From IMG/VR virus record IMGVR_UViG_3300037635_000208, positions 1 to 36,373 of that record: a stretch of DNA of 36,373 nucleotides. One strand, written 5' to 3'. This document shows positions 3,298 through 36,373 of the stretch, one piece after another. This DNA comes from a virus. Within the stretch, counting starts at the first letter, position 1; each line of letters opens with the position of its first letter. The position numbers were made by a program, and so were the translations under genes. The notes under the pieces were generated by a model. The model had not been told where the DNA came from, made no database searches, and saw only the letters and a program-made list of their open reading frames with translations.

Positions 3298-3387
3298 TCA
3301 CACTCCAAAGTTAGTGATTGCAAAGATAAACAGGCCAGCCACGATTAGCCAGCCTGTCATTACGAAGATCCAACCCATTAGCCGCAT
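3298..3387 (-). CDS. 29-aa single-span membrane peptide
   Basis: A short frame from ATG 3387, whose A is the last base of the stop codon of the 163-aa gene (TGATG), so re-initiation is likely. It encodes MRLMGWIFVMTGWLIVAGLF followed by IFAITNFGV: one almost wholly hydrophobic span with an Arg near the N-terminus. Its stop lies 1 nt before the ATG of the 66-aa gene, so it fills the gap between two genes exactly. No homolog is recognised. It may act on the host membrane early in infection, but that is speculation. Confidence 0.55.
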   Translation of the reverse strand: MRLMGWIFVMTGWLIVAGLFIFAITNFGV

Positions 3388-3902: not shown

Positions 3903-4315
3903 CACTATGCACCCACCATAGGTGCACAGTGCAAGCTACACCAAAGGCCAGACATCCCACAGAACGAAAGGCCTAAGGGTTCACTTGTCACGCAATGGGT
4001 GCATGTCTCAGCAGGTGTGTAGCACGCACACTTATCCCATTGCACATATAGTGCTATCCCGTAGGGGTGGTCATTGCTCAGATCGACAGGTACAAAGGTA
4101 GCACTATCAAATAGCGCACACCTATAGCATACAAACTCACTGAGCTATCGCACCCCACTTGCTTACTGTCCACCCTGCATAGCATAACCATGCAGGCCTT
4201 ACGGCACTGTCTTATTGGGCTACCTTCTATCCACCAATAAGCAAGGGGCACCCGCAGAGCGGGCTATGGTCACAGTCAAGGGGCAGGTCAGCGCCTTTAG
4301 GTCTGTGATAACCTG
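3903..4315 (-). promoter_or_regulatory. Hairpin-packed leader of the leftward operon, possible structured RNA
   Basis: About 410 bases with no gene. Reading along it I find successive, mostly non-overlapping inverted repeats: CACT-a-TGCACC/GGTGCA-c-AGTG (3903-3931), AGGCC/GGCCT (3945-3974), GCAATGGG/CCCATTGC (3992-4043) with a nested stem at 4015-4031, ATAGTGCTA/TAGCACTAT (4048-4107), CCTGCAT/ATGCAGG (4174-4196), CTTATTGG/CCAATAAG (4211-4241), CCCGC/GCGGG with a 3-nt loop (4251-4263) and CAGGT/ACCTG (4284-4315). It lies just upstream of the first leftward gene, so it would be the 5' part of that transcript if the promoter lies to its right. A structured RNA, processing sites or a replication element are all possible. 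Confidence 0.55.
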
Positions 4316-4397
4316 AAACCAGATAAGCACTTACCCAAAAGATAATCAACAACTAATTTGGACAGGGTGTTAAGATATTGAAAACATTACGTTTTAT

Positions 4398-4426
4398 TTT
4401 ATACATTCTATTTGGTGAATATGTAA
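4398..4426 (-). promoter_or_regulatory. Candidate leftward promoter
   Basis: Read on the minus strand this is TTACAT - 17 bases - TATAAA. The -10 box is good and the -35 box poor. It would transcribe leftward through the hairpin-rich leader into the gene starting at 3878. It lies just to the left of the dyad repeats at 4458-4874, so those would lie upstream and could control it. Only the hexamers support this; other leftward promoters may exist in the AT-rich stretch. Confidence 0.3.
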
Positions 4427-4457
4427 TCAGACCGAATCAGTCCAAAAGGGTGATTCG

Positions 4458-4874
4458 CTATCCGAAGGGGTAGGGTCTTTTTCTAATATAATGAGTGGAA
4501 CAGATAGGGTACAAACGTTCTGTTTTTGTTCTGGTTGACTGGGAGAGCTACCCCAAAGAATACGACAGTAATACTTACCTATACTAATGGGTAGTCGTAG
4601 TTATCCTTTGGGCTATAAAAACTATACGGTAGTAGAGATAGTGCGGTCAGAGGTATAAATCAGAGCTATCCTTTGGGGTAGGTTTGGTTATCCTTTGGGG
4701 TGCATAACCTACTCTTTCTGAGTTTGTGATCACAAATCCCAGTGTAATCGCTACCCGTTTGGGTATAGTGAATACTCTATTGTATAAAATATCTAGTTAT
4801 TACAGATAGTTAGCCTACTCAGAGTGATAGTTTGTGCTATACGAAGGGATAGGTGGTGCTATACCTATGGGGGC
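4458..4874. repeat. Family of 16-bp dyads (CTAtCC-N4-GGGTAG) with paired 22-bp spacing
   Basis: Nine copies of an imperfect dyad with 6-base arms and a 4-base centre: starts at 4458 (CTATCC-GAAG-GGGTAG), 4548, 4579 (CTATAC-TAAT-GGGTAG), 4601, 4666 (CTATCC-TTTG-GGGTAG), 4688, 4751 (CTACCC-GTTT-GGGTAT), 4837 (CTATAC-GAAG-GGATAG) and 4859. A looser copy lies at 4054-4070. Three pairs are exactly 22 bp apart (4579/4601, 4666/4688, 4837/4859), about two helical turns, as expected for cooperative protein binding. They lie in the divergence region, so they are candidate operators or origin iterons. They could also fold as RNA hairpins with 4-nt loops. Confidence 0.75.
4723..4737. promoter_or_regulatory. 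Perfect 14-bp palindrome TTTGTGATCACAAA
   Basis: TTTGTGATCACAAA (4723-4737 region) is a perfect palindrome lying between two copies of the 16-bp dyad. A partly similar sequence (CTTGTGATCACAGA) occurs inside the leftward gene region near 3184-3197. It resembles halves of a CRP/FNR-type site but lacks the usual gap between the half sites. It may be a separate operator; the evidence is only symmetry and position. Confidence 0.3.
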
Positions 4875-5196
4875 ATGGGCCATACGGGGGGTACCTGTAC
4901 GTATATACACCCAATGACAGCGGGGGCTATTTTTTAAGGTGTTAACCACAATGTAAATACATTAAATTTTCTTTAATATTTTCTTAAACCTCTTTAATTT
5001 CTTTTAATAGTAGTAACACTATGTTACATACTGTAACATTACGTGATCAAAATGTTAATCCTTCGTACAAGCCCCAGGAATAGCCTTAACTACTCTCATA
5101 GCCTAACCCCTATCAAACCTCTTTAACCCCACTCAGAGAGCTTCTCAGAGCCTCTCAGCACGTATTCTACCCCAAGGCGGGGGCGTAAAGTAATAA
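4875..5196. other. AT-rich non-coding stretch with a GTAACA/TGTTAC motif cluster
   Basis: No gene is seen here. The left part is strongly AT-rich with poly-T and poly-A runs (about 4920-5010). GTAACA (5013), TGTTAC (5022) and GTAACA (5033) alternate in orientation, the last two forming ATGTTAC-N5-GTAACAT (5021-5039), a further operator-like dyad. A short CCCC-AAGGC-GGGG inverted repeat lies at 5170-5182. The combination of an AT-rich tract, dyads and divergent transcription would fit a replication origin, but nothing here proves it. Confidence 0.4.
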
Positions 5197-5416
5197 CTTA
5201 AGGTAATTCTCAAGATTCTTAAATAATTATTAAAATAGGTCTTGACAAATACCTTAAGATATACTATAATATATACCTAAAGGTATACCTTAAGTACTAA
5301 TACTAACATTATAGTTATACCTTTAGTACTTTAAGTACACCTTAAGTACTATTATTACTTCTATAATATAAATATTATTAAACCTTAAGGTATGACCTTA
5401 AGTATACCTTAAGGTA
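5197..5416. repeat. Array of ACCTTAAGGT-type palindromes around the late promoter
   Basis: CTTAAG occurs seven times in about 220 bp (5197, 5253, 5289, 5341, 5384, 5397, 5408), usually within a longer palindrome such as TACCTTAAGGTA (5405-5416, perfect over 12 bp) or ACCTTAAGGT (5383-5390 region). Degenerate copies fill the spaces: ATACCTAAAGGTAT (5273-5286), ACCTTTAGT (5319-5328) and GTACTTTAAGTAC (5326-5338). One copy lies between the -35 and -10 boxes of the promoter at 5242-5270, where a bound protein would block RNA polymerase. The others cover the first ~150 bases of the transcript. This is what a repressor or activator operator array looks like; the protein is unknown. Confidence 0.75.
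5242..5270 (+). promoter_or_regulatory. Strong rightward sigma70 promoter (TTGACA-17-TATAAT)
   Basis: TTGACA at 5242-5247, a 17-base spacer and TATAAT at 5265-5270: both hexamers and the spacing match the consensus exactly. Transcription would begin near 5277 and read through a ~220-nt leader into the lysis and virion genes. A CTTAAG palindrome (5253-5258) lies within the spacer and more copies lie downstream, so the promoter is very probably regulated. Confidence 0.85.
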
Positions 5417-5463
5417 GATTCTTGGATGTTGAAGTTTTTTCTGTCGTCCCACTTAAAGAATCC

Positions 5464-5491
5464 TTGACTTTCTAAAAGTAAGCTGTATAAC
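5464..5491 (+). promoter_or_regulatory. Rightward promoter giving a leaderless transcript
   Basis: TTGACT at 5464-5469, a 16-base spacer and TATAAC at 5486-5491. The ATG of the next gene is at 5497, where transcription from this promoter should start, and there is no Shine-Dalgarno sequence before that ATG. The arrangement resembles leaderless phage transcripts such as lambda cI from PRM. The hexamers are clear; the start site is inferred. Confidence 0.6.
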
Positions 5492-5496
5492 TAGCC

Positions 5497-5748
5497 ATGT
5501 CCAAACCAAAAATGTATATCAGCGATGACGTACTGGGTGAATTTTATAAAGCCCTCGCTGATGAAGACGAAGGAAGACTACGTAGGGTCCACATTCCAAG
5601 ATCCGATGTCTTCTACGTAAGAAAAAAGATATTTGAAGACACTGGCATTAAGTATTCCCTAGACAGAGTTGAAAGAGCTATGTACCTAGAGGGGCATCTT
5701 AAGGCTTCAGACGTGTTTGAACCTAGTAGAAAAAGGGATTGGGAATGA
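5497..5748 (+). CDS. Small charged protein, first rightward gene, probably leaderless
   Basis: 83 residues starting at ATG 5497. There is no ribosome binding site; instead a -10 box ends 5 bases upstream, so the mRNA probably begins at or next to the ATG. The protein is highly charged: MYISDDVLGEFYKALADEDE, a basic patch (RLRRVHIPRSDVFYVRKKIF), then a helix-like SLDRVERAMYLEGHL. The part DVFYVRKKIFEDTGIKYSLD could be a small winged or helix-turn-helix fold, which with the leaderless start would fit a regulator. I recall similar short proteins near the start of marine-phage late regions but no known function. Its stop overlaps the next ATG (ATGA). Confidence 0.75.
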   Translation: MSKPKMYISDDVLGEFYKALADEDEGRLRRVHIPRSDVFYVRKKIFEDTGIKYSLDRVERAMYLEGHLKASDVFEPSRKRDWE

Positions 5749-21181: not shown

Positions 21182-23155
21182 ATGCCCACACAATGGCAAA
21201 CGTTCCCTATTGAATTTCAGGGTGGGCTGGTTACAAATATCAGTCCATTGCAGCAGGGTATCAATGCCCCAGGATCTGCAAGACGTTTAATTAATTTTGA
21301 GCCATCTATCCAAGGTGGCTATCGTCGTATAGAGGGTTTTACTAAATACGATAGTAGCACTATTCCCCCTTACGGTACACCTTTAATTCAAGGCGGTTCT
21401 CAAACAGGGTCTACTTTAAATATAGCTAATATTTTTATAGCCCCACAAGATGGTGACACCTTTACAATAGCAGGTATCTCAGGTACTTATACCATTGCAA
21501 CCTCAGGTGTTTCATACAGTTCAGCAAATAAAACTGCTACACTAACTTTAACATCTTCTTTAGCAAGCTCGCCATCAGATCAAGCCGCCATAACTTTTAC
21601 TAATACAGAAGATCTAATAGAAGGTCTTATTTATTTTAACAGTAAAGCTGTTGCTTACCGTAATGCTGATTTATTTGAGTCTTCTGGATCTGGTTGGACT
21701 AAGATAAACGTACCTAGTTATGGCACAGTTCTTGTAAATGGTGGTAGTCAAACTGGCACAAGTTTAACTGTAGATGGGCTTACTGGCACTCCACAATCAG
21801 GTGATACATTTACTGTTGCTGGAATACAAAAAGTCTACACAGTGGTTTCAGATGCTTCTGTATCCTCTGGTGGAGCTACTCTGACAATTAGCCCAGCGCT
21901 TGCTTCAAGTCCAGCTAATGATGTTGCTGTTACTTTTTTAACTAGTAATAGAGGATCAGGTAAAAAACATCGTTTTGCTCGTTACGGGTTTACTGGCACT
22001 CAAAACATTATGATAGTGGATGGCGCTAATAATCCAGCTAAGTATGACGGTTCTACTTTCACTGTACTAGACAATGCACCTTCAGATGTATTAGCAGCAT
22101 CTCATGTAGCAGAATTTAAAAACCATATTTTCTTTGCTAAGAATAAAAATCTAGTATTTACTGCACCTTATACAGATAATGACTTTACAGCTAATTCAGG
22201 TTCTGGTACAATAAATCTTACCCAAGATATTACTGGTATCATTACTTTCCGTGAACAGTTAATTATCTTTAGTAAAACTCAGATACACAGGTTGGTTGGT
22301 ACTACAATAGCTGACTTTCAACTTCAACCCATATCTCTAGACATTGGTTGTGTACAAGACGACAGTATACAAGAAGTTGGTGGTGATATTGTATTCATAG
22401 GCCCAGACGGTATTCGTATGCTTAGTGCTACAGATCGTATTGGAGACTTTGGATTAGCTGTTGCATCTCGTCCTATACAGGATGAAACTATTACTTTCTT
22501 AAGTTCTAACACAAACTTTCATAGCTGTGTAGTTAGAGAAAAGAATCAGTACCGTATATTTGGATATGCTGCTTCTGTAGGTACCGCAGGTGCTCGTGGG
22601 ATACTAGGAACTCAATTTGCCGATCAGACTTCTCAAGGTATGGCATGGGCAGAAACTAGAGGTATAAAAGCTTACGTAGTAGACTCAGTGTATACTGAAA
22701 CTGGAGAAGTTACTTTATTTGCTCGTGAAGATGGGCTAGTATATAGAATGGAATCTGGTAACAGTTTTGATGGCTCTAACATTGTTGCCTCTTTTAGTAC
22801 TCCATTCTTTTCTATTAACGATCCAAGAGTAAGAAAAACTATTTATAGACTATCAACCTACATTGATCCTACAGGTTCTATTGATGGGTTGGCAACATTA
22901 AAGTTTGATTTTGATGAACCTAATTTAGTACAACCCCCATCAATAACTCTATCAAACACACAGGCAACAGTATCTTTTTATGGTGTATCTACGTATGGGA
23001 CAGGTGTATTTGGTGGTAAACTCGTGTCAGTATTTAAAAGTCAAACAGTAGGTTCAGGGTTTACCGTTTCAATACAGTATGAATTTGACAGTGATGATCC
23101 ACCTTTTTCACTAGACGCAGCAACATTAGAATTTGCAGCACATGACAGGCAATAA
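21182..23155 (+). CDS. Tail hub / stabilisation protein with two inserted beta domains
   Basis: 657 residues. The start TFPIEFQGGLVTNISPLQQG, NFEPSIQGGYRRIEGFTKYD is the usual N-terminus of podovirus tail nozzle/hub proteins (P22 gp10/T7 gp12-like), and later repeats such as FARYGFTGTQNIMIVDGANN and SHVAEFKNHIFFAKNKNLVF suggest a beta-propeller. Two homologous beta modules are inserted: residues ~64-139 (GTPLIQGGSQTGSTLNIANI) and ~181-252 (GTVLVNGGSQTGTSLTVDGL), each with 'DTFT-AGI---YT'. They look like a tandem duplication displaced by a ~40-residue segment. Confidence 0.8.
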   Translation: MPTQWQTFPIEFQGGLVTNISPLQQGINAPGSARRLINFEPSIQGGYRRIEGFTKYDSSTIPPYGTPLIQGGSQTGSTLNIANIFIAPQDGDTFTIAGISGTYTIATSGVSYSSANKTATLTLTSSLASSPSDQAAITFTNTEDLIEGLIYFNSKAVAYRNADLFESSGSGWTKINVPSYGTVLVNGGSQTGTSLTVDGLTGTPQSGDTFTVAGIQKVYTVVSDASVSSGGATLTISPALASSPANDVAVTFLTSNRGSGKKHRFARYGFTGTQNIMIVDGANNPAKYDGSTFTVLDNAPSDVLAASHVAEFKNHIFFAKNKNLVFTAPYTDNDFTANSGSGTINLTQDITGIITFREQLIIFSKTQIHRLVGTTIADFQLQPISLDIGCVQDDSIQEVGGDIVFIGPDGIRMLSATDRIGDFGLAVASRPIQDETITFLSSNTNFHSCVVREKNQYRIFGYAASVGTAGARGILGTQFADQTSQGMAWAETRGIKAYVVDSVYTETGEVTLFAREDGLVYRMESGNSFDGSNIVASFSTPFFSINDPRVRKTIYRLSTYIDPTGSIDGLATLKFDFDEPNLVQPPSITLSNTQATVSFYGVSTYGTGVFGGKLVSVFKSQTVGSGFTVSIQYEFDSDDPPFSLDAATLEFAAHDRQ

Positions 23156-31073: not shown

Positions 31074-31541
31074 ATGATCGAAGTGTTAGCTTTAGCAGGT
31101 ACAGTTACTAAAATAGCTGGGTCAATTAGTGCAGCTGTAAAGGCTGGACGTGATATATCTGACTTAATGCCACACTTTGGAAAGCTGGCTAAGTTAGAAG
31201 CTGACATTAGTTTAGCAGAGCAAGGTAGACATAAAGGTCCACTGGGTAGACTAACTTCATCTGAAGAAGAAGGCTTTGCCATAGCTCAAGCTAAGATGAA
31301 ACATAAAGAAGCGCAGAACGAATTACGTGAAGTGTGCAGACTCTATGGACCACCAGGGATGTGGGACTTAGTAGTTAAAGAGCAAGCTGCTGCTAGGGTG
31401 AGACAAAAAGAAGCAATAGAACAACAAGCTAAACAACGAGATCGTTTATTTTGGGGTTTATCTGTAGCTCTAGGTGTGGTAATATTTGTAATAGGTTTTG
31501 CAGCGATGGTCTTAGGTCTAAATGAAGTGGTAAATGGATAA
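31074..31541 (+). CDS. Marine-phage protein with C-terminal membrane span
   Basis: 155 residues. An amphipathic N-terminal helix (VLALAGTVTKIAGSISAAVK), a helical hairpin (KLAKLEADISLAEQGRHKGP, EEGFAIAQAKMKHKEAQNEL), VCRLYGPPGMWDLVVKEQAA, then a basic helix and a last hydrophobic span (LFWGLSVALGVVIFVIGFAA). The phrase 'LY-PPGMWD-LV--QAAAR' is one I recall from marine myo- and podophages. It may be a membrane-interacting ejection or lysis helper. It is immediately followed by the giant gene. Confidence 0.7.
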   Translation: MIEVLALAGTVTKIAGSISAAVKAGRDISDLMPHFGKLAKLEADISLAEQGRHKGPLGRLTSSEEEGFAIAQAKMKHKEAQNELREVCRLYGPPGMWDLVVKEQAAARVRQKEAIEQQAKQRDRLFWGLSVALGVVIFVIGFAAMVLGLNEVVNG

Positions 31542-31542
31542 G

Positions 31543-34500
31543 ATGGAATTTGCAGGGTTTACTCCCCAACAAAAATATACTCTATTAAAGAGTATGGATT
31601 ACAAAGGTTCTGCTCAATCCGATGAGATGGATGCATTTCTTGCTTCGTCTCCTAGAGCAGCATCTATGATGGGTGAATATACTAAGATTGCACAACAACG
31701 TGTGTCAGGTAAACCCTTATCTGGTATTGGTATGCAAGAGGGTGGCACAGTAATAAACCCTAAAAATAATATTACTGGCGGTACTAATCCTGACATAGAG
31801 GAAGAGTTAGATAATCCACCTGTTACCATTGATCCTGTCCCTGAAGATCTAGAGGCAGCAGATATTACAGGTGGCTATGACCCTACTATAGTCTCAGATG
31901 TTATACCTAAGGTAGAAGGTGAAGCTACTACTAAACCTGTCAGTCTAACTGACATAGTAGATTTTAATACTACTACAGATGTATCTAGTGGAATTACTAC
32001 AACTCCTGCAGATTCAAATACTGATCAGTTATTTGAAACAACGGGTACAAGCCTTTTAAATACTGAAGCTAGTTTATCTGAAGACCCCCTAAGTATAGAT
32101 ATGAGTAACCCTAGTGACTCTAATGTTACAGCATACTTACAAACAATTAATAAAGACTACCCAACGCCAGAGGATAGATACAACTGGGCACAAGGAAGAA
32201 TAGCTTCAAGGGATGTTAAAACTCCTGTAGAAGCTCAAACCCTTGCTTATATTATAGGTACTAGTCCTAGTTACACATCTACAACTGGCACTGGTATGGA
32301 TTGGGTTAAGTTTTCTGAAGATATTCTTAGTCATGTTGTAAATGCACCTGGATTTACAGAGTATGATCCTTTATATGATTTAAATAAAGATGGGGAGATT
32401 ACTGTTACAGATGCTGTTGGGGGTTCATTGCAATACGCAGTAGGTACTGAAGCCCCTCCAGAAGATTGGCAAGTTCCTCCAGGGTATCTTAAAAACTCTA
32501 CATCAGCAGTAAGTAACTCAGGCAATAACTCAACAACAAGTGGTACAAATACAATGGCAGCACAAACAAGCGGATACAAAGGAGTGGGTTCATCAACCAC
32601 AAAAGCTGGTGGAACCCCTTTAAATGAACTTCAAAGCTCACTAGCAACTAAAAGACAAGAGCTTGCTGCAATGTCTGCAGAGGATATGACTGGAGAAACT
32701 GGTCAAGCTTTAGCTGCAGAGATTCAAACTCTTGAAGATCGTATTGCAATAGCTCAACAAAACATTGCAGAGGGTGCACCTTCTGGTGCTGAGGTGGTAA
32801 CTGCTGGTATGGCTGACCCTATGAACCTTGTAACAACCCCTGATGTCGCCACAATTACTACAGACCCTAACCAGTTTATAGCTGCAGGTACTGGTAAAGT
32901 TACTGATACTACTGCTGCTGATACTACCACTGTTACTGATACCTCCCAAGCTGGTGCAGTTACAACTCCTGATGCTGCTACTTACACTGCTGATAAAGTA
33001 TCGGATGATGTCACTGCTGAGACTGCCAAACTTTCTGCAGCTCAATTAGAGAATCTTACTAAAACTATATCTGCACAAGATTATACTTTAGAGGAGTTAA
33101 ACTTCTTAGGATTTGATGCAGCTCAGATTGATCAGTATCAAAAAGTAAAAGATATTACTGATATACCTGATCTTACCGAAGAGCAAAAACTTAAAGCTGC
33201 AGTTTTAGCTGACATAGATCTTCCTGTAGCTGTAGCTAAAACTTTAACTTTTGATCCAATTAAATATAAAGCCGATGCTGCTAAGTTTACTGGTGATACC
33301 CCTAAAGCAACTGCAGCAACTGACTATGATTTAGGAACTATATCTGGTGTAACTGCAGAAGTAAAAGCTGCAGAGCTTGTTACTGCTGCTGGTGGAGATG
33401 CAGAGGCTGCTCAAGCTACCGCACAACAATCACTTAAAAAGATTCAAGCTGACTTTGCTACTGGTAAAGTTACTGCAGATCAACTTGCTGCTGCTCAAAC
33501 ACAATACGACAATATTATTACTTCTATTGTTAGTGGTTCTGTAACTGGTGATATGATTGTCAAGGCTGCTGGTGTAGGTCTTTCAGCAGAACAATCAGCA
33601 GATATTATTTCTAAGTATAATTCTAGTATTGATGCAGTAAAAGGTAAAGTATCCGATGGTGAAACCATTACTGCCCAAGATACCTACAACCTAGACCCCA
33701 CTAAAGTAGCTGAGATTACTAAAACTAAAGTTGTCGATCCTGCTACAACTACGGACTTTCCTCAAGGTTCAGCTGCTACCACTGAGTATGACTCAACTGT
33801 GTCAGGAGCTAGAGGTGAAGTAGGCTCTAATGAACTAGTAGCTGCAGAAGGTATTGGTATTAATAAAGAGCTAGTTGCACAGTCTGTCTATGGTGTAGCT
33901 AAGACTATGGAGCAAGTTAATGAGTCAGCAATAATGAAAGCTGCCACTGCTACTTTCTCCCAGTCTGCTCTTGCTGAAGCATCTGTAGGTGTACCAGAGG
34001 CTATGTCCACTGTTCAGGGACAGCTGTCCAGCTTAATGAATCAATTCAAAGATGGCACTCCAGCATGGGCTGCAGGTGCTATGAGAGCTGCTACAGCATT
34101 AATGAACTCTCGTGGACTTGGTGGTAGCTCAATGGCAGGTGCTGCTATTACACAAGCTGCATTAGAGTCTGCACTCCCTATTGCAGTTCAGGATGCTACC
34201 TTCTATCAAGAAATGCAGATGACTAACTTGTCGAATAGACAAGCAGTTAGCCTTGCTAATGCAGCTGCTGTACAAGGTATTGAGTTACAAAACCTTGATA
34301 ATATGCAAGCAGCAGCTCTTAAAAATAGTACTCAAGCTTTTGAACTTCAATCTCAAAACTTAAGTAACTTGCAAGAAACTGTACTTGCTAACTTAAATGT
34401 TAAAGCATCTATTCAAAATAAGTCTTTAGATATTAATACTCAAGCTGCTGTAGCTAATGCTGCTAGATTTGCTGAGTTAAATAATATTAACTTGAGCAAT

Positions 34501-36373
34501 GAACAGCAAGCATTACTGCAGGAATCTTCTGAGAATCTTCAAATAGAACTGTCTGAGTTGTCTAACGAACAACAGATGGCCCTCTCTATGTTGCAAACTA
34601 AAGCAGCATTAATGGGTCAGAACTTGTCGAATGAACAACAATCTGCAATGCTTGCATCTACTCAAGCATTTGAAGCTGCTAACTTTAATGCGAATGCACA
34701 GCAACAAGCCTTTATGCAGGATGCCTCGGCTCAAGCTGCCCTAGAGGGACGTGCTCTTGACATTCGTCAACAGACTTCTTTGTTTAATGCAGCTCGTATT
34801 GCTACAGTCAACGATATGAATTTGACTAATGAGCAGCAAGTATTACTGGCTGAGTCTGCAGAAAACTTACAGATTGAGTTACAAGACCTTTCCAACCGTC
34901 AGCAAACTTCCCTTGCTAACGCACAGTTACGTGCAGCTCTTCAAGGTAAGACCCTTGATAATGAACAGCAAGCTGCAATCTTAAATGCAGAGCAGTATGC
35001 AGAGTTAGAAAAGATTAATCTTAGTAATAAGCAACAAGCATTTATTCAAGATGCTGTAGCTAAAGCTTCTTTAGAAGGCAGGGCATTAGATAATCGTCAA
35101 CAGGCAGCACTCTTTAATGCAGCTCGTGCAGCTGATGTTGCTGACATGACTTTAAATAATGAGCAACAAGCTCTTATACTGCAGTCTAACCAAGAGTTTG
35201 ATCAAGAGATCACTAACCTGTCTAATAGACAACAAACATCTTTGGCTAATGCACAACTTCGTGCAGCTTTGCAAGGCAAAGTTCTTGACAATCAACAACA
35301 AGAAGCTATAATTAACGCAGAGCGTTATGCTGAAGTAAACAATATTACTGTTACTAATAAACAACAAGCTATTATTCAAGAGTATGTATCACGCACTACT
35401 ATGGAGGGTAAGACCCTTGATAATGAGCAGCAGGCTCGTATCTTTAATGTATCCAATCAGATACAAGAACGTGGCATTGAACTAAGTAATCAACAACAAG
35501 TTAATTTGTTTAACTCTACAAACAATTTAGAAGTTGATATGGCTAACTTGTCTAATAAACAGCAGACAGAGTTAGCTAATGCTCAGATTGAAGCAGCACT
35601 TCGTGGTCAAGAGCTATCTAATAAGCAACAAGCTAACGTTATTAATGCTGCACGTATTAGTGAAATTGCTAATATTAACTTTAATGCTGAACAACAAAGA
35701 GAGATTGAAAATGCTAGACTTGCAAGCAGTGTTGACCTTGCTAACTTGGATAGTAAAAGCGCTAAGATGCTTGCTGAAATGGCGCAACTTGCCTCTATGG
35801 ATATGGCAGCTCTTAACAACCGTCAGCAAGCTGAGGTTCAAAACGCTCAGAACTTCTTACAAATGGACTTGTCCAACTTAGACAACGAGCAGCAAACAGC
35901 TATCTTTAAATCTCAGCAAAACATCGCTGCACTATTCAATGATCAAGCTGCTGAAAATGCTAGGTTACAGTTTAATGCCGCATCTGAAAATCAGATCAAT
36001 CAGTTCTTTGCGGATCTTCAAGTCAATGTAAATAAATTTAATGCAGATCAAGCTAACGCTATTAAGCAGTTCAATGCTGGGGAGACCAACACTGTATCTA
36101 AATTTAACGCTCAACTGGAGTCTGTCCGTGATCAGTTCAATGCAAGTAATGCATTAGTTATTGAACAGGCTAATACCAAGTGGCGTCAGGATATTGCTAC
36201 AATGGATACAGCTGCACAGAATGAAGCTAATATGATGGCTGCTAAGATGGCTGCTGATATCACCTCAGCTGTGATGGATCAAATCTGGCAACGTGAACGA
36301 GATCTTATGTCGTTTGCATTTACTGCAATGGAAAGTATGGCAGATAGGAACCTTGATATACTACTTGCAGATA
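31543..36373 (+). CDS. Giant repeat protein, probably internal/ejection virion protein (partial)
   Basis: An open frame from ATG 31543 to the right edge, at least 1,610 codons, read codon by codon without a stop. Start: MEFAGFTPQQKYTLLKSMDY. Residues ~60-250 are acidic and Thr-rich; at 279-290 lies DLNKDGEITVTD, a textbook EF-hand loop. Residues ~350-835 are Ala/Thr/Asp-rich with coiled coil. A conserved segment follows: GTPAWAAGAMRAATALMNSR, GLGGSSMAGAAITQAALESA. From residue 896 run 26 gapless repeats of 22 residues with consensus L-(S/D)-N-x-QQ. After them the sequence is long helix (FNA-repeats). I recall related repeat proteins from marine phages. Length and position last in the tail module suggest an ejection protein. 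Confidence 0.85.
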   Translation, partial: MEFAGFTPQQKYTLLKSMDYKGSAQSDEMDAFLASSPRAASMMGEYTKIAQQRVSGKPLSGIGMQEGGTVINPKNNITGGTNPDIEEELDNPPVTIDPVPEDLEAADITGGYDPTIVSDVIPKVEGEATTKPVSLTDIVDFNTTTDVSSGITTTPADSNTDQLFETTGTSLLNTEASLSEDPLSIDMSNPSDSNVTAYLQTINKDYPTPEDRYNWAQGRIASRDVKTPVEAQTLAYIIGTSPSYTSTTGTGMDWVKFSEDILSHVVNAPGFTEYDPLYDLNKDGEITVTDAVGGSLQYAVGTEAPPEDWQVPPGYLKNSTSAVSNSGNNSTTSGTNTMAAQTSGYKGVGSSTTKAGGTPLNELQSSLATKRQELAAMSAEDMTGETGQALAAEIQTLEDRIAIAQQNIAEGAPSGAEVVTAGMADPMNLVTTPDVATITTDPNQFIAAGTGKVTDTTAADTTTVTDTSQAGAVTTPDAATYTADKVSDDVTAETAKLSAAQLENLTKTISAQDYTLEELNFLGFDAAQIDQYQKVKDITDIPDLTEEQKLKAAVLADIDLPVAVAKTLTFDPIKYKADAAKFTGDTPKATAATDYDLGTISGVTAEVKAAELVTAAGGDAEAAQATAQQSLKKIQADFATGKVTADQLAAAQTQYDNIITSIVSGSVTGDMIVKAAGVGLSAEQSADIISKYNSSIDAVKGKVSDGETITAQDTYNLDPTKVAEITKTKVVDPATTTDFPQGSAATTEYDSTVSGARGEVGSNELVAAEGIGINKELVAQSVYGVAKTMEQVNESAIMKAATATFSQSALAEASVGVPEAMSTVQGQLSSLMNQFKDGTPAWAAGAMRAATALMNSRGLGGSSMAGAAITQAALESALPIAVQDATFYQEMQMTNLSNRQAVSLANAAAVQGIELQNLDNMQAAALKNSTQAFELQSQNLSNLQETVLANLNVKASIQNKSLDINTQAAVANAARFAELNNINLSNEQQALLQESSENLQIELSELSNEQQMALSMLQTKAALMGQNLSNEQQSAMLASTQAFEAANFNANAQQQAFMQDASAQAALEGRALDIRQQTSLFNAARIATVNDMNLTNEQQVLLAESAENLQIELQDLSNRQQTSLANAQLRAALQGKTLDNEQQAAILNAEQYAELEKINLSNKQQAFIQDAVAKASLEGRALDNRQQAALFNAARAADVADMTLNNEQQALILQSNQEFDQEITNLSNRQQTSLANAQLRAALQGKVLDNQQQEAIINAERYAEVNNITVTNKQQAIIQEYVSRTTMEGKTLDNEQQARIFNVSNQIQERGIELSNQQQVNLFNSTNNLEVDMANLSNKQQTELANAQIEAALRGQELSNKQQANVINAARISEIANINFNAEQQREIENARLASSVDLANLDSKSAKMLAEMAQLASMDMAALNNRQQAEVQNAQNFLQMDLSNLDNEQQTAIFKSQQNIAALFNDQAAENARLQFNAASENQINQFFADLQVNVNKFNADQANAIKQFNAGETNTVSKFNAQLESVRDQFNASNALVIEQANTKWRQDIATMDTAAQNEANMMAAKMAADITSAVMDQIWQRERDLMSFAFTAMESMADRNLDILLAD
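34228..35943 (+). repeat. 26 tandem 22-residue repeats (66 bp each)
   Basis: Each unit starts L-S/D-N-x-QQ, for example LSNEQQALLQESSENLQIEL, LSNRQQTSLANAQLRAALQG and LDNEQQAAILNAEQYAELEK. All 26 are exactly 66 bp: the first starts at 34228 and the last at 35878. A higher-order pattern is visible: the units LSNRQQTSLANAQLRAALQG and LDN-QQ--I-NAE-YAE recur four repeats apart, so blocks of several units were duplicated. 22 is twice 11, as in hendecad coiled coils. Confidence 0.9.

Follow-up and report, generated by a model that had tools for sequence, protein, structure and literature searches.

A helically phased site array beside a universal core in the early/late intergenic region of HMO-2011-type phages

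Gene layout around the array

The window analysed here is a 36,373-bp IMG/VR virus record, a fragment of a genome whose genes match those of HMO-2011-type and related roseobacter podoviruses. The HMO-2011 type counts as one of the dominant groups of marine viruses (PMC9038755). There is one large intergenic region, at about 3,906–5,496, from which early genes run leftward and lysis, packaging and head genes run rightward, and the same early/late layout was found in the complete relatives CRP-9 and HMO-2011. A model that had read the sequence without database searches (the sequence-only reading) had placed a set of repeats between early genes to the left and divergent late genes to the right, and this location was confirmed. 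At the right end of the window, an ORF of at least 1613 aa (31534–36372) runs off the stretch.

Array sites and their helical phasing

We searched the window for CTATCCN4GGGTAG with up to two mismatches and obtained 14 matches compared with 1.7 ± 1.4 expected, and none of 100 shuffles reached 14. Twelve of these matches fall between 4054 and 4852 and only two copies are exact; because palindromic sites get reported on both strands, the number of distinct places is smaller than 14. A weight matrix built from 175 sites in relatives gave scores of at least 12.5 bits at seven sites (4458, 4548, 4579, 4601, 4666, 4751 and 4837) and only once elsewhere in the 36 kb. On the plus strand these are CTATCCGAAGGGGTAG at 4458–4473 (22.2 bits), CTACCCCAAAGAATAC at 4548–4563 (14.8 bits), CTATACTAATGGGTAG at 4579–4594 (18.0 bits) and CTATACGAAGGGATAG at 4837–4852 (22.4 bits), the last being nearest to the conserved core described below, and on the minus strand they are 4601–4616 (13.9 bits, 22 bp after 4579), 4666–4681 (21.3 bits) and 4751–4766 (17.2 bits). 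Two weak sites lie at 4622–4637 (plus strand, 12.1 bits, 21 bp after 4601) and 4688–4703 (minus strand, 11.0 bits, 22 bp after 4666). The array first noticed is real, but two of its nine dyads do not stand as described: 4688 is weak, 4859 scores only 6.2 bits, overlaps the start of the conserved core and is not a good site, and 4622 had been overlooked. A copy at 4054 that had been called looser is indeed weak (9.6 bits). A TTTGTGATCACAAA palindrome at 4723–4736 occupies the same alignment position in several relatives.

The consensus refined from the 175 sites is TAT[AC]C-NAAA-GGATAG, and its centre is A-rich, so that the four central bases, noted earlier as variable, are not free. Sites of at least 15 bits are confined to this intergenic region in eight other genomes of the same array type (type A), with a single exception, showing that the repeats are not scattered at random over the genome, and genomes with arrays of other types have few such sites or none. 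Concerning spacing, three pairs had been described as exactly 22 bp apart; 4579/4601 and 4666/4688 hold, and 4837/4859 is without a good second site in the window, several relatives having a site 21–22 bp downstream of the place matching 4837. Exactly 22 bp is not a rule, and relatives show instead a ladder of whole helical turns, with sites spaced by 17–24, 42, 63 and 84–88 bp. Across 12 arrays the best period was 10.6 bp, with a resultant of 0.50, whereas 500 null trials gave at most 0.27, and 58 of 84 adjacent spacings came to a multiple of 21.2 give or take 2 bp, where 15.8 would be expected, these statistics not being fully independent because related arrays share ancestry. These observations support an array of palindrome-like sites for a putative dimeric DNA-binding protein on one helix face; to this extent the earlier proposal of a dimeric protein binding side by side is upheld, and we infer that the binding could be cooperative.

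Repeats of this form might instead act as stem-loops in a transcript, and several sites in the window can pair, as read from their letters, if G-U wobble is allowed. Among 109 unique sites, however, no pair of arm positions covaries and the arms hold no compensatory changes, all six pairs are formed in only 6 sites, and positions 5 and 12 pair less often than after shuffling (0.44 compared with 0.54). Moreover, no RNA family scored above its threshold, the sole match being to a microRNA model far below threshold that we take as chance, and helical phasing would be meaningless for hairpins. RNA hairpins were therefore rejected for the lack of covariation and of any RNA family match, and we regard them as extremely improbable. 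Relatives keep the phasing and not the pairing, which is the opposite of what would speak against phased protein sites. At positions 5 and 12 the 109 sites anti-covary (CG 45, AG 37, CT 19 and AT only 3), suggesting that a dimer may tolerate one weak half-site and not two.

A universal core and an IHF-like element adjoin the array

Directly downstream of the array lies a single-copy core that the sequence-only reading had overlooked, at 4870–4949 on the plus strand, consisting of CATGGGCCA, a GC-rich spacer, GTACGTATATAC, CCCAATGACAG, a G run, a T run and GTTAACCAC. Two pattern scans of IMG/VR recovered it from diverse phages, 48 non-redundant regions were aligned, and the core profile matches the window at 4870–4946 (E = 1.8e-19). 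One copy is present in each HMO-2011-type and CRP-9-type genome examined, the match in HMO-2011 itself being marginal (E = 0.67) though correctly placed; in SIO1 and CRP-6, profile search found no core. The polymerase of CRP-9 is of cobavirus type and about 20% identical to the others or less. Since CRP-9 has the core together with this polymerase, and SIO1, itself a cobavirus, has none, the core tracks the late/packaging module of HMO-2011 type. The GC-rich spacer (4883–4896) varies in sequence and has discrete lengths of 9–10 or 14–15, and it often holds a short dyad, for example GGTACC or GGGTATACCC.

A conserved AT-rich element with an IHF-like site (ATACTCTATTGTATAAAATA...GTTAGC) is located at 4771–4815 on the plus strand, 99 bp upstream of the core. 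Among 14 genomes in which this element was detected, the distance is 97–101 bp in 11 and 106–111 bp in the other three, and the IHF consensus with at most one mismatch occurs at that place in 32% of 50 regions compared with 5% after shuffling, which suggests that IHF may bind there. In type B phages the element is not recognisable and array sites occupy its place. The last strong array site is 28–34 bp before the core in most type-A phages. AT content is 0.66–0.73 on both sides of the core compared with 0.46 within it, in a region much of which is AT-rich.

The same core is accompanied by other repeats in other phages. In CRP-9 (an isolate with a type B array, host FZCC0023), CRP-13 and metagenomic relatives these are TAGTTTAA-NN-TTAAACTA spaced by 22, 32 and 33 bp, and in further core-bearing phages 14-bp tandem repeats, and others, are found in the place of the array. 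Array type differs even between phages whose DNA polymerases are 87% identical. The array is the variable half of a larger unit with the universal core and the IHF-like element.

The core accompanies the packaging module of HMO-2011 type whatever the replication module, and it could be the start of packaging, that is, a terminase recognition or cutting site (pac or cos) at which the array and the bend aid terminase binding. In favour of this, G and C replace each other in its GC-rich segment while the length classes stay constant, and many contigs end in this intergenic region. These ends are nevertheless diffuse and share no single base, and contigs continue across the core, although contig ends are an indirect test; the terminase small subunit tracks phage lineage and not array type, its gene (terS) is about 5 kb away, and HMO-2011 is recorded as circular. 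We consequently hold packaging to be unlikely. Physical genome ends at the core were rejected, since contig ends are spread and none is sharp. An integration site was also considered and rejected, since CRP-9-type phages share the core and a search of them for the integrase gene cluster found none. A tyrosine recombinase of about 300 aa is encoded by the HMO-2011-type genomes examined that reach its region (in contig G012 at 22121–23029; L273:2221–3129). A prophage scan of 84,980 species genomes yielded no clear relative, the one match being a 44-kb contig in a metagenome-assembled genome, and with one relative only in so many genomes lysogeny is not supported.

Promoters and LexA-type boxes

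Two strong sigma70-like promoters on the plus strand are directed at the late genes: P1 (TTGACA-N17-TATAAT) at 5242–5270 and P2 (TTGACT-N16-TATAAC) at 5464–5491, the latter immediately ahead of the first late gene. A second repeat family, of ACCTTAAGGT palindromes, surrounds P1 and extends downstream of it (5196–5415) and is likely a separate operator set; relatives have analogous palindromes at the same place. Inside the array there is no sigma70-like promoter as strong as P1 or P2. No mention of promoters was found in the genome papers searched on the HMO-2011-type group. Five type-A relatives have a separate left cluster of sites, in which a conserved TTGACaGAGAACATtt on the early-gene strand is immediately followed by a site. 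This TTGACaGAGAACATtt is possibly an early promoter, which the left cluster may overlap; it has a poor -10 and was not seen in the window.

GTTC-N7-GTTC is the LexA box of alphaproteobacteria (literature including PMC4211646 on Caulobacter), and the window has one at 4517–4531 on the plus strand. The intergenic regions of 17 genomes hold 18 such boxes (0.625/kb) compared with 0.022/kb elsewhere, a 28-fold enrichment, and GTTC repeats with spacers of 4–6 and 8–11 occur 0–2 times, showing that only spacer 7 is enriched. In pattern and enrichment, 4517–4531 thus has the character of a host-type LexA operator and may be bound by host LexA. Boxes of this kind are present in CRP-9, where both copies are intergenic, in G012, G041 and others, and L233, L236 and L242 have four to six each.

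These elements bear on the possibility that a phage regulator uses the array as a multi-operator and, aided by the IHF-like bend, governs transcription of the divergent early and late genes. Its position between the divergent genes, the left cluster after TTGACaGAGAACATtt with its possible early promoter in five type-A phages, and the LexA-type boxes enriched in the same region are in agreement with such control. Rapid change of site type is, moreover, typical of regulators. However, there is no strong promoter that the main array overlaps; from the core start it is about 370–590 bp downstream to P1 and P2, the first of which has its own palindromes; the -10 of the putative early promoter is poor, and no such promoter was seen in the window; and a universal single-copy core would be needless for a regulator array. 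We regard transcription control as a doubtful explanation of the unit, somewhat less likely than the origin proposed below.

Candidate binders of the array

An early gene on the minus strand at 2202–2579 encodes a helix-turn-helix (HTH) domain, and its product is a possible array binder. In each of the three test genomes, the copy of this gene resembled those of distant type-A phages more than those of near non-A ones, which is suggestive. A regression covering 34 gene clusters placed it only fourth, with an uncorrected p of 0.007 that is not significant after correction, and the number of domains in the protein varies among type-A phages, two-domain homologues being known. The first late gene (5497–5748, plus strand, 83 aa) has at least 465 relatives in IMG/VR, and the predicted fold of its product is all-helical, at moderate confidence, with no structural match. 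Both genes had been put forward as binders; the HTH gene stays a candidate, and the gene at 5497 drops out, following lineage and not array type. DNA polymerase, terminase and the gene at 5497 were all rejected as setters of array specificity, as each tracks lineage and not the array; for the terminase small subunit this similarity comparison covers few genomes and is an indirect test. For the early gene at 3387 such a role is not supported, since phages with other arrays have copies 71–72% identical to it and one type-A phage has a copy of 55%.

A tentative reading as an iteron-like origin

That the array is a phase-locked set of protein-binding sites acting together with the core is, in our judgement, very probable. 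Because the arrangement matches lambda and plasmid iterons, we tentatively read the array, the IHF-like bend and the core as an iteron-like replication origin, the likeliest of the readings although itself less likely than not. Sites at whole-turn spacing would place the bound dimers on one face of the DNA, a dimeric protein would fill the array, the IHF-like bend would fold the complex, and initiation would take place at the core and its AT-rich flanks. We infer here that the binder would be a phage protein, that it would bind cooperatively and that replication would be the outcome. The presence of one site clustered in multiple copies, and of these sites in helix phase, is shared with iteron origins: the iterons of lambda are inverted repeats bound by O dimers, and those of plasmids are helically phased and lie beside AT-rich DNA (PMC5043065). 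The main point against an origin is that the core travels with the HMO-2011-type late/packaging genes and not with replication genes. Moreover, array type does not follow DNA polymerase, and no initiator gene was identified. GC skew was rejected as a locator, as gene direction explains the skew and no separate origin signal is left.

More broadly, HMO-2011-type phages might share a modular initiation unit in which a universal core and bend are combined with interchangeable phased arrays and LexA boxes wire the unit to host DNA damage, a proposal that we consider improbable as a whole. If it were true, co-infecting phages would owe type specificity or immunity towards one another to array swapping between close relatives. 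The universal core, with its exchangeable arrays, provides a defined 80-bp target for finding the start of replication, packaging or late expression, and it is a natural experiment in which phages change the specificity of control sites and keep the machinery.

Comparison with known systems

Many of these phages have, in this region, the exact GTTC-N7-GTTC pattern of alphaproteobacterial LexA/SOS operators; the boxes are a different motif from the array sites, and only some relatives have them. In lambda cos, the R sites of cosB with an IHF site lie next to cosN, and cosB and IHF help terminase to bind. The present region resembles cos in having repeated sites and an IHF-like site adjoining a GC-rich conserved core, but it has many more sites, its terminase small subunit does not follow the array and there are no sharp contig ends. 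The lambda origin has few 19-bp iterons, located inside gene O, whereas up to about 18 sites are intergenic here and stand beside a universal core. Nevertheless both have closely spaced inverted-repeat sites, several in number and bound by one dimeric protein, which is putative here, and both have AT-rich DNA nearby, in a region that is here AT-rich over much of its length (PMC5043065). Finally, although the iteron origins of plasmids (P1, pSC101 and R6K gamma type) consist of direct repeats bound by monomers and neither a rep gene nor DnaA boxes were identified here, they share with the present region helix-phased sites, a site for a bending protein, which is here a putative one, and AT-rich DNA (PMC5043065).
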